DNA from: Solimonas soli DSM 21787 | GTDB lineage: Bacteria > Pseudomonadota > Gammaproteobacteria > Nevskiales > Nevskiaceae | Direction: 5' to 3' | DNA length: 64,000 bases | Assembly (NCBI RefSeq): GCF_000474945.1 | Contig: NZ_AXDW01000011.1 | Coordinates: 62,001 to 126,000, forward strand | Part shown: in pieces, positions 1,371 to 15,161 of the stretch | Position numbering within the stretch: the first letter of the stretch is position 1 | Layout: each line of letters opens with the position of its first letter | The notes under the pieces: model-generated | Told to the model about the DNA's origin: nothing | Database searches by the model: none | What the model saw: the letters and a program-made list of their open reading frames with translations, nothing else | Translations under genes and position numbers: made by a program

Positions 1371-2486
1371 ATGACGGATGCATCGGGCCACCGTCCCACG
1401 CTGCTTTCACTCGAAGGCAGCAACGCGCAAGCCGTGACGATCCGCGCGAAGGCGCTCGTCTTCGCGGACCCCGTGTCGCGCGGCCTGCTGCGCTACCTCG
1501 AGCGCGTCGCGCCGAGCGAGGCGCCGGTGCTCATCATCGGCGAGACGGGCACGGGCAAGGAACTGCTCGCGCGCCACATCCACCAGCTCAGCGGCCGCAA
1601 CGGTCCGTTCGTCGCGGTCAACTGCGGCGCGATCAGCGAGAACCTCGCCGAGAGCGAGCTGTTCGGTCACGAGTCGGGCGCGTTCACGGGCGCGACAGGC
1701 CGCCGAGAAGGCTGGTTCGAGGCCGCCAACGGCGGCACGCTGTTCCTCGACGAGATCGGCGACCTGCCGCTGTCGCTGCAGGTCAAGCTGCTGCGCGTGC
1801 TGCAGGAGCGTGAAGTCGTGCGCATCGGTTCGCGCAAGCCGATTCCCGTCGACATCCGCCTCGTCGCCGCGACCAACATCGATCTCGGCGAGGCCGTGCG
1901 CGCGGGCCGTTTCCGTCTCGACCTCTACTATCGCCTCAACATCGCGCAGCTCACGCTGCCGCCGCTGCGCGAGCGGCGCGGCGACATTCTGCCGCTCGCG
2001 CAGCATTTCCTGAATCATTACCGCGAGCGCCTCGGCCTGCCGCCGCAGGTGTTCGGCCATGCCGCGCTGCGCGCGCTCGAAAGCTACAGCTGGCCCGGCA
2101 ATATCCGCGAGCTCGAGAACGTCGTGCATTTCGCGCTGCTCGTCGCGTCCGACCACGAGATCGGTCCCGAGCACCTCAAACTCACGAGCGAGGCCGCGCG
2201 ACCGCTGCCCGTCGCCGGTGCGCGCAGCACGGCGACGCCACGCGAGCGCGTCCAGGACGCGTTGCAGGAATTGTTCGACGAAGGCGGCGACAACCTGTTC
2301 GACGAATACGAGAAACTCATCGTCGACGAGGCGTTCCGTTACAGCAATTACAACCAGGTGCGCGCCGCGGCGCTGCTCGGCCTGTCGCGCAATGTGTTGC
2401 GCACGTTGCTGCGCAAGCACGGCTATCTCAGCGAACGCGGGCGGAGCAACGTCGGCGGCGTGCGCGCCACGGGTGCGCTGTCCTGA
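1371..2486 (+). CDS. Sigma-54-dependent activator, SfnR-like, with no N-terminal sensor domain
   Basis: A bacterial enhancer-binding protein of 371 residues that would remodel sigma-54 RNA polymerase. About 25 leader residues are followed directly by the AAA+ domain: Walker A GETGTGKE, the sigma-54 contact motif GAFTGA, Walker [13 protein letters not shown]. The C-terminal Fis-type helix-turn-helix is [22 protein letters not shown]. There is no receiver, GAF or PAS domain. The stretch [20 protein letters not shown] just before Walker A resembles SfnR of Pseudomonas putida, an activator of sulfone and organosulfur genes made under sulfate starvation. I chose ATG 1371 because AGAGG precedes it; the frame extends to 1317. 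The sulfur genes downstream and the two sigma-54 promoters support the role. Control is probably by its own level, since it has no sensor. Confidence 0.88.
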
Positions 2487-2531
2487 ACTGAACGGCCACC
2501 TCCTTCCCAAACAACCGCGGTTGGCAAAGCG

Positions 2532-3578
2532 ATGAGTCAGGATGACACCGTGCCAGCGTCGATCGACAAGATCTGGTACACGAGCGCGCCCGTGCCGACG
2601 CCGCTCGGCCTCGCCTCGCAGCTCGGCTGGTTCCTCGACGAGTTCCGTGGCGACGGCATCGGCGTCTATACGCTGCGCGAGGGCCGCGACGACGGCCTGC
2701 ATCGCTCGCACTACGATCATTCGCTCGAGCATTCGTTCCGCCAGGGCGGCAGCGCGCCGGCGATGTGGGCACGCGCCGAAGGACGACGCACGCGCGTCAT
2801 CGGTCTCAACTGGATCGACGAATTCCAGGCCATCATCGCGCTGCCGCACAGCGGCATCCGCAAGCTGCGCGATCTCAAGGGGCGACGCCTCGCGCTGCCG
2901 CGCCGCCGCGGCCTCGAAGTCGACCACGAGCGTGCCGCCGCGCTGCGCGGCTCGCTCGTCGCGCTCGAGATCGCCGGCCTCACGCAGGCCGACGTCGCCT
3001 GGCTCGACATCGTGCTCGACCGCCCGCAGCTCGCGCGGCCCACGCACCGCATTCTCAACAACCGCCACCCGCTGCTCGCCAACGCGCTGCGCGAATGTCG
3101 CGCCGACGCCGTGTACGTCAAGGGCCCGCAGGGCGCGCAGCTCGTCGCCGAGCTCGGCGCGACCGTGCTGCTCGACATCCGCGCGCATCCCGATCCGTTC
3201 GTGCGTGCGAATCACGGCGCGCCGCGACCGCTGACCGTCGACCAGCACCTGCTCGACGCGCGGCCCGATATCGTCGAGCGCTTCCTGCGCCGTGTCGTCG
3301 ACGCCGGTGAATGGGCCGAGGCGCATCCCGCCGAGACGCTCGCCTATGTCGCACGCGAGACGCACGCCGACGAGCGCTGGGTCAGAGCGGCGTATGGCGA
3401 CGACCTGCACCGCCACCAGCACACCAACCTCGACGAGCAGGCGATCACCGCGCTCGCGGCCTACCAGCGCTTCCTCTATCTGCACGGCTTCCTGCCGGGC
3501 GACTTCGACCTGCGCGCGTGGATCGCGACCGAGCCGCTGCAGGCCATCCTGCGCGAACGCACCGCACGCGCGGCCTGA
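2532..3578 (+). CDS. Cytoplasmic DszB/SsuA-fold protein (desulfinase-like, catalytic Cys replaced by Ala)
   Basis: A 348-residue protein of the sulfonate-binding-protein fold, starting 45 bp after the activator stop. It has no signal peptide or lipobox, so it should stay in the cytoplasm, unlike a transport receptor. By recall alignment it matches 2-hydroxybiphenyl-2-sulfinate desulfinase DszB: YTSAPVP (16-22) aligns with YSNCPVP around DszB Cys27, and His60 and Arg70 align with DszB His60 and Arg70 with the same 10-residue spacing. The C-terminal part (LVAELGATVLLDI; WAEAHPAETLAYVA) follows the DszB pattern as well. The nucleophilic Cys is Ala19 here, so ordinary desulfinase chemistry is doubtful. 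Possible roles are a ligand-sensing partner of the activator, an altered C-S lyase, or a binding protein. Usual databases would call it an ABC substrate-binding protein. Confidence 0.75.
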   Translation: MSQDDTVPASIDKIWYTSAPVPTPLGLASQLGWFLDEFRGDGIGVYTLREGRDDGLHRSHYDHSLEHSFRQGGSAPAMWARAEGRRTRVIGLNWIDEFQAIIALPHSGIRKLRDLKGRRLALPRRRGLEVDHERAAALRGSLVALEIAGLTQADVAWLDIVLDRPQLARPTHRILNNRHPLLANALRECRADAVYVKGPQGAQLVAELGATVLLDIRAHPDPFVRANHGAPRPLTVDQHLLDARPDIVERFLRRVVDAGEWAEAHPAETLAYVARETHADERWVRAAYGDDLHRHQHTNLDEQAITALAAYQRFLYLHGFLPGDFDLRAWIATEPLQAILRERTARAA

Positions 3579-13639: not shown

Positions 13640-14230
13640 ATGAGCGCCGCTGTCCGTGAGCCGCAACACGAGATCGAACCGCTGTTCCACACGCGCTGGT
13701 CGGCGCGCGCGTTCACCGGCGAGGCGATCGCGGACGCCACGCTGTACACGCTGTTCGAGGCGGCGCGCTGGGCGCCGTCGGGCGGCAATGGTCAGCCCTG
13801 GCGCTTCGTCTACATCAAGCGCGACCACGTCGACTGGCCGCTGTTCCTCGGCTTCCTCAACGAGCGCAACCGCATCTGGGCGAGCCGCGCGGCGGCGCTC
13901 GTGCTGCTCGTCTCGCGCCAGGAACGCGAGACGCCCGAAGGACCAAAGCCGGCGCGCTCGCACTCGTTCGACGCCGGCGCGGCGTGGTCGAACTTCGCGC
14001 ATCAGGCGCACCTGCTCGGCTGGGGCACGCGCGCGATGGGCGGCTTCGACCTCGCGCGCACGCGCACGGCGCTGCAGATTCCCGAGGTCTACGCGCTCGA
14101 AGTCTTCATCGCCGTCGGCCGCGTCGGCGACGTCGAGATGCTGCCCGAGGACCTGCGCGCGCTCGAGAAGCCGAACGGCCGGCTGCCGCTCGACGCGATC
14201 GTCTCCGAAGGCCGTTTCGCATTCACCTGA
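13640..14230 (+). CDS. Nitroreductase-family FMN oxidoreductase
   Basis: A 196-residue nitroreductase-fold protein. FMN-contact signatures are RWSARAFTGEAIADATLYTLFEAARWAPSGGNGQPWRFV near the N-terminus and AAWSNFAHQAHLLGWGTRAMGGFD in the second half. It is shorter than NfsA/NfsB types and has no extra domain. It lies between the MFS and ATPase genes of the organosulfur cluster (38 and 10 bp gaps), so it is probably a dedicated flavin reductase or reductive enzyme of the pathway. Substrate unknown. Confidence 0.85.
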   Translation: MSAAVREPQHEIEPLFHTRWSARAFTGEAIADATLYTLFEAARWAPSGGNGQPWRFVYIKRDHVDWPLFLGFLNERNRIWASRAAALVLLVSRQERETPEGPKPARSHSFDAGAAWSNFAHQAHLLGWGTRAMGGFDLARTRTALQIPEVYALEVFIAVGRVGDVEMLPEDLRALEKPNGRLPLDAIVSEGRFAFT

Positions 14231-14240
14231 GGTTCCCGTC

Positions 14241-15161
14241 ATGAGCCAGGCTTCGCTCAAGCTGCCCAATCAAGAACCGGCCCTCGGTCTGCCGACGTCC
14301 CTCGCCCGCGTAGCGGGAGAGGTGGGGACCATCCGCGGAGCGGATGGTGGGGTGAGGGAGAGAACGTTCGCCGACGCGCCACGCGCCGCGCCGGCGCCGC
14401 CCGCCGCGCGCGCGCGCGCGACGCTCGCGCTGCGCAAGGTCTCCAAGCACTTCACGGTCGACGGCAAGCCGCTCGAGGTGCTGCACGACATCGAGCTCGA
14501 AGTCGCCGACAACGAGTTCGTCTGCGTCGTCGGCGCTTCGGGCTGCGGCAAGTCGACGATCCTGCGTCTCATCGCCGGGCTCGAGACGCCCGACGGCGGC
14601 GCCGTGCTGCTCGGCGACACGCCGGTCACGGGCCCGGGCCTCGAGCGCGGCATCGTCTTCCAGGAGCACCGCCTGCTGCCGTGGCTCGACGTCGAGCAGA
14701 ACGTGCTGCTCGGCCTCGACGCGGTGAAGACGCTGAGCGCCGCGCAGAAGCGGGAGCTCGTGCGCGAGCACATCGCGCTGGTCGGCCTCGAGGGCTTCGA
14801 GAAGGCCTATCCGGCGCAGCTCTCGGGCGGCATGGCGCAACGCGCGGCGATCGCGCGCGGCCTCGTCGCCAAGCCGCAGATCCTGCTGCTCGACGAGCCG
14901 CTCGGCGCGCTCGACTCGCTGACGCGCACCTACTTGCAGGAAGAACTGCTGCGCATCTGGCGCCAGGAGTCGATCACCACGGTCATGGTCACGCACGACG
15001 TCGAGGAAGCCGTCTATCTCGCCGACCGCATCGTCGTGCTCGATCCGCGCCCGGGCCGCGTCCGCACGATCGTCGACGTGCGCCTGCCGCGGCCGCGCTC
15101 GCGCGGCCACGCGGCGTTCGCGGCGCTCAAGGAAAAAGTCCTCGGCGAGCTGCGCCATTGA
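14241..15161 (+). CDS. ABC importer ATPase (SsuB/AtsC family)
   Basis: The 306-residue ATPase that should energise the double permease at 6584. The ABC domain begins near residue 61 (TLALRKVSKHFTVDG): Walker A GASGCGKST, Q-loop VFQEHRLLPW, signature LSGGMAQRAAIARGL, Walker B ILLLDEPLGALD, H-loop VMVTHDVEEA. SsuB and TauB start almost at the ABC domain; here about 60 extra residues precede it, and roughly residues 18-43 are encoded by a palindromic repeat. Starts at ATG 14241, ten bases after the nitroreductase stop; an internal start after the repeat is possible but I see no ATG there. Separated by 6 kb from its permease, within the same transcription direction. Confidence 0.9.
   Translation: MSQASLKLPNQEPALGLPTSLARVAGEVGTIRGADGGVRERTFADAPRAAPAPPAARARATLALRKVSKHFTVDGKPLEVLHDIELEVADNEFVCVVGASGCGKSTILRLIAGLETPDGGAVLLGDTPVTGPGLERGIVFQEHRLLPWLDVEQNVLLGLDAVKTLSAAQKRELVREHIALVGLEGFEKAYPAQLSGGMAQRAAIARGLVAKPQILLLDEPLGALDSLTRTYLQEELLRIWRQESITTVMVTHDVEEAVYLADRIVVLDPRPGRVRTIVDVRLPRPRSRGHAAFAALKEKVLGELRH
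14297..14362. repeat. Palindromic repeat inside the coding region of the ABC ATPase
   Basis: Two stem-loops: CCCGC-gta-GCGGG at 14305-14317 and ACCATCCGC-gga-GCGGATGGT at 14328-14348, flanked by CCCTCGCC and GGTGAGGGAGAG. The composition resembles the common intergenic CCTCTCCCGC/GCGGGAGAGG repeats of GC-rich genomes. Here it is read in frame and adds residues to the ATPase N-terminus. Confidence 0.65.

Follow-up and report, generated by a model that had tools for sequence, protein, structure and literature searches.

In a window of 64,000 nucleotides from Solimonas soli DSM 21787—the whole stretch of DNA analysed here, corresponding to positions 62001-126000 of contig C8 in a 4.19 Mb genome with a completeness of 99.79%—we identified an acquired block of 18 kb, probably an asf-type island for scavenging organosulfonates that was obtained by lateral transfer. 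At its centre lies a flavoprotein/ferredoxin pair that, judged by its sequence, is a divergent member of the AsfA/AsfB family. An earlier note on this DNA had proposed organosulfur uptake and assimilation around a flavin/Fe-S core, without a recognised sulfur-releasing enzyme; the core of that proposal likely holds, but the pair is of the AsfA/AsfB type by homology and tree rather than unrecognised, asf having been omitted from the set of known clusters used for comparison. Thirteen genes, all on the forward strand, tile positions 1371-18917 of the window, and are listed here in order with the insertion and two promoter-like sites:

969..18958, no strand: insertion, approximate extent (~18 kb), between typA and a convergent gene, by synteny with sister genomes G048, G046 and G040
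1371..2486, + strand: sensor-less sigma-54 enhancer-binding activator of SfnR-type architecture (Sigma54_activat, AAA lid and HTH_8 domains)
2532..3578, + strand: DszB-like protein with Ala at the position of DszB Cys27 and no signal peptide by eye (PDB search, alignment)
3913..3928, + strand: sigma-54 -24/-12 site TGGCATATCGATTGCA, one mismatch to the consensus used, ahead of the TonB receptor gene
3946..6570, + strand: TonB-dependent receptor, start codon uncertain (Pfam Plug and barrel domains)
6584..8224, + strand: fused double SsuC/TauC-type permease of 546 residues (two BPD_transp_1 stretches)
8250..9335, + strand: SsuA-family periplasmic binding protein (TIGR01728, 132.4 bits, below the cut-off of 163.5)
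9478..9493, + strand: sigma-54 -24/-12 site TGGCACGGCGGCTGCT; the asfA start lies 100 bases from the first base of the site
9578..11239, + strand: AsfA-type flavin adenine dinucleotide (FAD) flavoprotein of 553 residues, on a divergent branch (homology and tree)
11236..11682, + strand: AsfB-type ferredoxin with two 4Fe-4S clusters (eight invariant Cys)
11753..12361, + strand: SsuE NAD(P)H:flavin mononucleotide reductase (TIGR03567, 212.5 bits, cut-off 164.05)
12358..13602, + strand: major facilitator superfamily (MFS) exporter, 52% to the MFS gene of the Azoarcus indigens cluster
13640..14230, + strand: nitroreductase-family flavin reductase (PF00881; PDB 2fre, NAD(P)H-flavin oxidoreductase, E 8.7e-52)
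14232..15161, + strand: ABC importer ATPase (domain models)
15190..18917, + strand: two MsbA-type ABC half-exporters within the insertion, whose identity to ABC exporters in the vicinity of the A. indigens cluster is only 34-42%

The genes named in the earlier note on the forward strand at 1371-15161 are all present by domain and family models, and none of the 13 genes is an SsuD, TauD, AtsK, SfnG or sulfatase, in line with what it had said of its cluster; the MFS gene, the two half-exporters and the insertion ending near 18958 were not part of its description.

Over its length, the window flavoprotein is 37-38% identical (37.4% across 98% of the length by tblastn) to AsfA of Cupriavidus metallidurans CH34 (presumably Rmet_4334, going by the position of the record's sole match, which adjoins a ferredoxin); CH34 is among the 65 records recovered with the flavoprotein by tblastn against plasmids and secondary chromosomes. 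A scan of 84,980 genomes with this single protein, which reaches close relatives only, recovered four relatives at 73%, from Thauera linaloolentis and three Azoarcus (hereafter the Zoogloeaceae). A maximum-likelihood tree was built from 32 rows, without two intended AprA outgroups (L083 and L084). In it, 28 AsfA-type proteins, the window's included, stand apart with moderate support (92/92) from two sequences of AprA, one of SdhA and one of NadB; within them, the window protein groups with its four Zoogloeaceae counterparts (100/100) on a long stem, and this clade is sister (98/97) to a second Zoogloeaceae copy. For the ferredoxin, an alignment of 11 sequences has eight invariant Cys and shows a C-terminal extension common only to the window and the Zoogloeaceae branch. 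A structural model of AsfA made with eight alignment rows is poor (predicted local distance difference test (pLDDT) 48.3, predicted template modelling score 0.55), and its fold matches—fumarate reductase, succinate dehydrogenase, L-aspartate oxidase and 3'-phosphoadenosine-5'-phosphosulfate reductase chains, with TM-scores of at most 0.41 among the best 50—confirm only the superfamily.

Membership of that superfamily is also what would favour reading the pair as an adenosine-5'-phosphosulfate (APS) reductase, AprAB, or as a fumarate-reductase-like enzyme, in either case one that takes no part in the use of sulfonates. We give this reading a practically negligible probability: the flavoprotein scores 28 bits with the aprA model against a cut-off of 641.75 (the genome's own NadB reaches 26.1 bits), the residues aligned with GANRLGSNSL of the genome's SdhA differ, and in 24 chosen asf loci AsfB adjoins AsfA in every case, with a sulfonate-type (SsuA-type) binding protein nearby in 20. 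The description of the flavoprotein as AprA-like is accordingly sound at the level of the superfamily but not as an identity. The 24 loci comprised 18 plasmid records chosen from 65 matches to the window AsfA and 59 to that of C. metallidurans, the window, the loci of the four close Zoogloeaceae relatives and one further locus; they were tabulated with BLAST probes (1e-8, within 9 kb) that detect only the oxygenase families probed, and the DszB column of the table includes cross-matches to binding proteins. Permease and ATPase genes were each found in 19 loci, nitroreductases in 5, luciferase-family oxygenases in 6 and TauD-family enzymes in 3. Neither a luciferase- nor a TauD-type oxygenase lies within 9 kb in 17 of the 24 (three relatives being on short contigs), and the absence of both is therefore usual for asf loci; other oxygenases are annotated nearby in some of these 17, of the 2-oxoglutarate/iron type in L037, L043 and L098 and of the P450 type in L038. 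A fatty-acid-desaturase-like gene, possibly a diiron oxygenase partner, was additionally seen near asfAB in L043 and L098 (annotated) and in L004 at 10843-11874 (by eye).

The block is an insertion relative to sister genomes. We compared the flanks in six of ten sisters: in G048, G046 and G040, the window sequence from ~18959 onwards resumes 90-825 bases after typA, while G039 has a looser arrangement that resumes at window position 20399, and in G041 and G045 no right flank was found within the 20 kb taken. Because the spacer after typA varies among sisters, the exact ends of the island are not fixed; the span of ~969-18958 nevertheless means that the two half-exporters are included. The flavoprotein is present in one of 85 genomes of the order (1e-60), and so in none of the ten sisters, and in at least two of 369 genomes of the class (1e-50), a lower bound given that the class-level scan scored only three candidates per genome and the order-level scan up to 16. 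Downstream of typA, window positions 1084-1137 hold a 54-bp repeat (89%) of the typA 3' end, which predates the island; we considered this repeat as an attachment site and rejected it, as an island-less sister (L079, ~1254-1287, by eye) also has a second typA tail.

Control of the island probably involves sigma-54. SfnR is defined by a sigma-54 AAA+ domain and a Fis-type helix-turn-helix without a sensor domain, and the activator encoded at the start of the island fits this layout, its likeness to SfnR being one of domain architecture. Homologues at 59% occur in three of the four Zoogloeaceae genomes (the three Azoarcus)—in A. indigens with ~2.5 kb between the homologue and the cluster's MFS gene, in the other two on another contig—and at 52% in two Burkholderia loci. 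We scanned for promoters with TGGCAYGNNNNTTGCW, the sigma-54 -24/-12 consensus, allowing one mismatch, and found three matches in the window, the third of them at 38475, outside the cluster. Shuffled windows gave a mean of 1.06, and three matches were reached by 10 of 100 shuffles (9 of 100 in a repeat). The match count alone is thus weak, and the sigma-54 argument rests on the position of the sites: the two within the cluster fall, in the right orientation, in its two large gaps (~0.6 kb combined). Only 17 bases separate the first site from the ATG used for the receptor, which is why we treat that start codon as unsure. The earlier note's view that the cluster is driven by sigma-54 is, on these positions, probably correct; the genome also holds three RpoN-type genes (contigs C5, C9 and C1).

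Sites of this kind recur in relatives. Three Zoogloeaceae loci have seven sigma-54-like sites, against means of 0.27, 0.46 and 0.58, and the observed counts are reached by 2, 6 and 3 of 100 resamples. They precede the first permease gene (A. indigens and Azoarcus TTM-91), the second asfB (all three loci) and a TonB-like gene (Thauera and A. indigens), and none lies directly before the window-type asfA copy in these loci. The two Burkholderia loci have three sites each (means of 0.21 and 0.36), of which one precedes the TonB receptor and another lies close to a DszB-like gene.

These observations suggest a model for an asf-type island. Under sulfur starvation, the SfnR-like activator would open two sigma-54 promoters, the first driving the outer-membrane receptor, fused permease and binding protein, and the second a putative asfA-asfB-ssuE-MFS-nitroreductase-ATPase operon. 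A sulfonate, probably aromatic, would cross both membranes, and electrons for C-S cleavage would come from AsfB and the AsfA flavin, with SsuE and the nitroreductase supplying reduced flavin; the resulting sulfite would enter assimilation, and the desulfonated product may exit via the MFS exporter. Such a role is in line with published accounts of asf. Transposon mutants of Pseudomonas putida S-313 in asfA are described as losing the use of aromatic sulfonates and keeping that of aliphatic ones, AsfA and AsfB are placed in asfRABC, which complements ssu, and AsfAB is viewed as an electron-transfer set for the oxygenation (PMC4267179). Elsewhere, AsfA/AsfB and SsuE are presented as a chain that might carry electrons in aromatic desulfonation (PMC2864759), and asfA as a marker gene for aromatic sulfonate desulfurization (PMC9694294). 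We found no biochemical study of AsfA/AsfB in the open-licence literature.

Several observations weigh against the proposed role in aromatic sulfonate scavenging. The window AsfA is only 37-42% identical to plasmid homologues (the best 40 of 65); C. metallidurans AsfA, by contrast, has 20 records at 62-66%, and the most distant listed of its 59 matches are at 41-51%; in the tree, too, the window protein sits in a deep, separate branch, and the comparisons did not include AsfA of P. putida S-313 itself. There is no LysR-type AsfR gene in 1371-18917, where the 13 genes leave no space for one, and a sigma-54 activator stands in its place; Thauera has no close homologue of that activator (best 52%). 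Moreover, the published model makes aromatic desulfonation dependent on ssu as well (PMC4267179), yet SsuD was not found in this genome, while all four Zoogloeaceae carriers of the branch have an SsuD-like gene. Finally, three of those four carriers hold a second, inverted asfAB (40%), such that the window branch may have another substrate.

The last point leads to a serious, if unlikely, alternative, namely that the same machinery handles a sulfone, a sulfinate, an alkyl sulfonate or a sulfonated natural product and not arylsulfonates. The depth of the AsfAB branch would fit this, as would the division of labour suggested by the second asfAB beside it; a DszB-family protein adjoins, and a dedicated TonB receptor could point to a large or scarce substrate. 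The transport genes, on the other hand, belong to the SsuA/SsuC kind that most of the 24 asf loci also have. Counterparts of several island genes lie beside AsfA in the Zoogloeaceae: TonB receptors in four of four loci (57-60%), permeases in three (61-68%, in Azoarcus as two separate genes), the binding protein in three (68%), the nitroreductase in two (52-58%) and the ATPase in two (68-70%). Three of these four loci are on contigs of 12-15 kb, where absences are uninformative.

AsfA may cleave the C-S bond itself or feed an oxygenase encoded elsewhere in the genome. The earlier note had allowed for an SsuD or AtsK gene elsewhere that could account for all sulfur release and so count against its proposal. 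A genome-wide search returned four luciferase-family matches and one TauD-family match. No SsuD was found among them: for the three longer luciferase-family genes the best TIGR03565 score is 55.4 against a cut-off of 518.2, and an annotated SsuD used as probe gives no more than 43.9 bits with any of the four. That same probe finds the SsuD-like genes of the four Zoogloeaceae carriers at 56-62%. Contig C7, however, carries a luciferase-family gene of the NtaA/DmoA type (587 bits) together with the TauD-family dioxygenase, so that the possibility raised in the earlier note is borne out in part. With AsfAB and SsuE but no detectable SsuD, two mechanisms are left—either AsfAB cleaves alone, or it does so with another oxygenase such as those on C7.

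The second of these mechanisms overlaps with our preferred explanation, and in its stronger form holds that one of the C7 enzymes releases the sulfur while the island provides only uptake and electrons. Such an assignment is in keeping with the known model, in which AsfAB assists SsuD (PMC4267179), and both enzymes come with their own receptor and transporter; the monooxygenase, found in one of 11 genomes of the genus (1e-60), looks acquired as well. We nonetheless judge it rather improbable, in that the transport set on C7 is itself complete, no sigma-54-like site was seen there at the stringency applied, and both enzymes fall short of the SsuD, SfnG and TauD cut-offs (the TauD-family enzyme is close, with 286.9 against 313). 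The C7 genes form a second organosulfur cluster (L012, contig C7 64001-84000, positions 9132-18437), probably also acquired, made up of the TauD-family dioxygenase, an SsuA-type binding protein, a TonB receptor, the NtaA/DmoA-type monooxygenase, an aldo-keto reductase, a fused double permease and an ATPase. Contig C5 holds, near 270024 (L010), a short fragment of the luciferase family that may be a truncated gene.

For the first mechanism, AprA offers a model of how reduced FAD might attack sulfur, through its handling of APS. A divergent AsfAB could in this way be an SsuD-independent C-S-cleaving desulfonase, its reduced FAD attacking the sulfonate sulfur with electrons arriving via AsfB and a dead DszB-like protein serving as the cytoplasmic sensor for the activator; we regard this more specific scheme as distinctly doubtful.

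The DszB-like protein itself was named correctly in the earlier note, though it is unlikely to release sulfur. A PDB search (E up to 0.1) matched only two DszB sequences (best E 1.8e-10), and the RXGG motif that DszB homologues are reported to have in common is kept (FRQGG); these two features favour an active, sulfur-releasing desulfinase. DszB is, however, described as needing Cys27, with C27S inactive (PMC6100217), and the window protein has Ala at this position, whereas 13 of 15 aligned relatives (some near-identical) retain Cys and two, both Burkholderia paralogues, have Ser. We therefore rejected an active desulfinase as highly improbable, and the sequence suggests instead that the protein is probably a binding or sensing pseudoenzyme; a ligand-binding role, possibly as sensor for the activator, is our hypothesis. 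A model of the protein alone was poor (mean pLDDT 34.6).

The surroundings of its relatives vary: in Agrobacterium they adjoin a gene of the acyl-CoA-dehydrogenase family, in Variovorax genes for a sulfurtransferase and a cysteine dioxygenase are close by, and in the two Burkholderia loci the 52% activator, permeases and a TonB receptor are. A general pairing of activator and DszB-like protein was considered and dropped, as it holds only in the window and these two Burkholderia loci; the Agrobacterium and Variovorax loci gave no activator match, and neither did six stretches that surround DszB-like genes in four further genomes. On the Burkholderia replicons L032 and L035, a locus close to the activator homologue has three DszB-like genes, of which two have Cys27 and the third has Ser. 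On several plasmids, DszB-like proteins are annotated as ABC transporter substrate-binding proteins, and a desulfinase family may hide under that name; among the 15 relatives aligned, the family mostly keeps the desulfinase Cys.

In kind, the island belongs with a known system, and its novelty lies in the distinct AsfA branch, the sigma-54 activator replacing a LysR regulator, the receptor and fused permease, the DszB-like putative pseudoenzyme and a host without detectable SsuD. The ats locus of P. putida S-313 likewise has a double-size, AtsB-type permease, but the window lacks AtsK and AtsA. With asfRABC of P. putida S-313 and asfRAB of C. metallidurans CH34, the island has in common AsfA and AsfB, an ABC importer and the proposed link to SsuE, as well as a binding protein in the case of S-313 (PMC4267179); it departs from both in its regulator, in the addition of a TonB receptor, a fused permease, a nitroreductase and a DszB-like protein, and in that no SsuD was found in the host genome, and from CH34 also in the low identity of its AsfA. 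The Azoarcus and Thauera clusters are the closest, in AsfA branch, transport genes, sigma-54-like sites in three of them and, for A. indigens, a nearby activator homologue. They differ in their additional asfAB copies and the split permease genes of Azoarcus, in that no DszB-like protein or SsuE was found in these loci, and in having SsuD-like genes elsewhere in all four genomes. SfnR is described as a sigma-54 regulator of sulfone use in Pseudomonas, and the sfn/msu regulon resembles the island in this control of organosulfur use, whereas its enzymes are SfnG, MsuC and MsuD (PMC8234197). To DszB (2'-hydroxybiphenyl-2-sulfinate desulfinase), the DszB-like protein is linked by sequence relationship and RXGG but not by the catalytic residue.

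Sulfonates, aliphatic or aromatic, are reported as the most abundant organic sulfur in soil, with asfA marking bacteria that free the aromatic kind (PMC4267179). A genome with AsfAB and SsuE in which no SsuD was found provides a natural test of what AsfAB does: if its host can grow on arylsulfonates, the idea of AsfAB as no more than a helper of SsuD would be wrong, or another oxygenase would be needed. The comparison also separates a distinct AsfA branch and ties it to sigma-54-like promoters.

Some further features were noted in the Zoogloeaceae clusters. A. indigens encodes a third asfAB on the minus strand beyond the activator homologue (L116, 2817-4445 and 4485-4835), and its nitroreductase appears to be fused behind an alpha/beta-hydrolase-like domain (L021, 17504-18829; a 441-residue frame, hydrolase by eye). 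A TonB-like gene (by eye) with its own sigma-54-like site ends the clusters of both Thauera (L018, 11276-11929) and A. indigens (L021, ~20000-20774).

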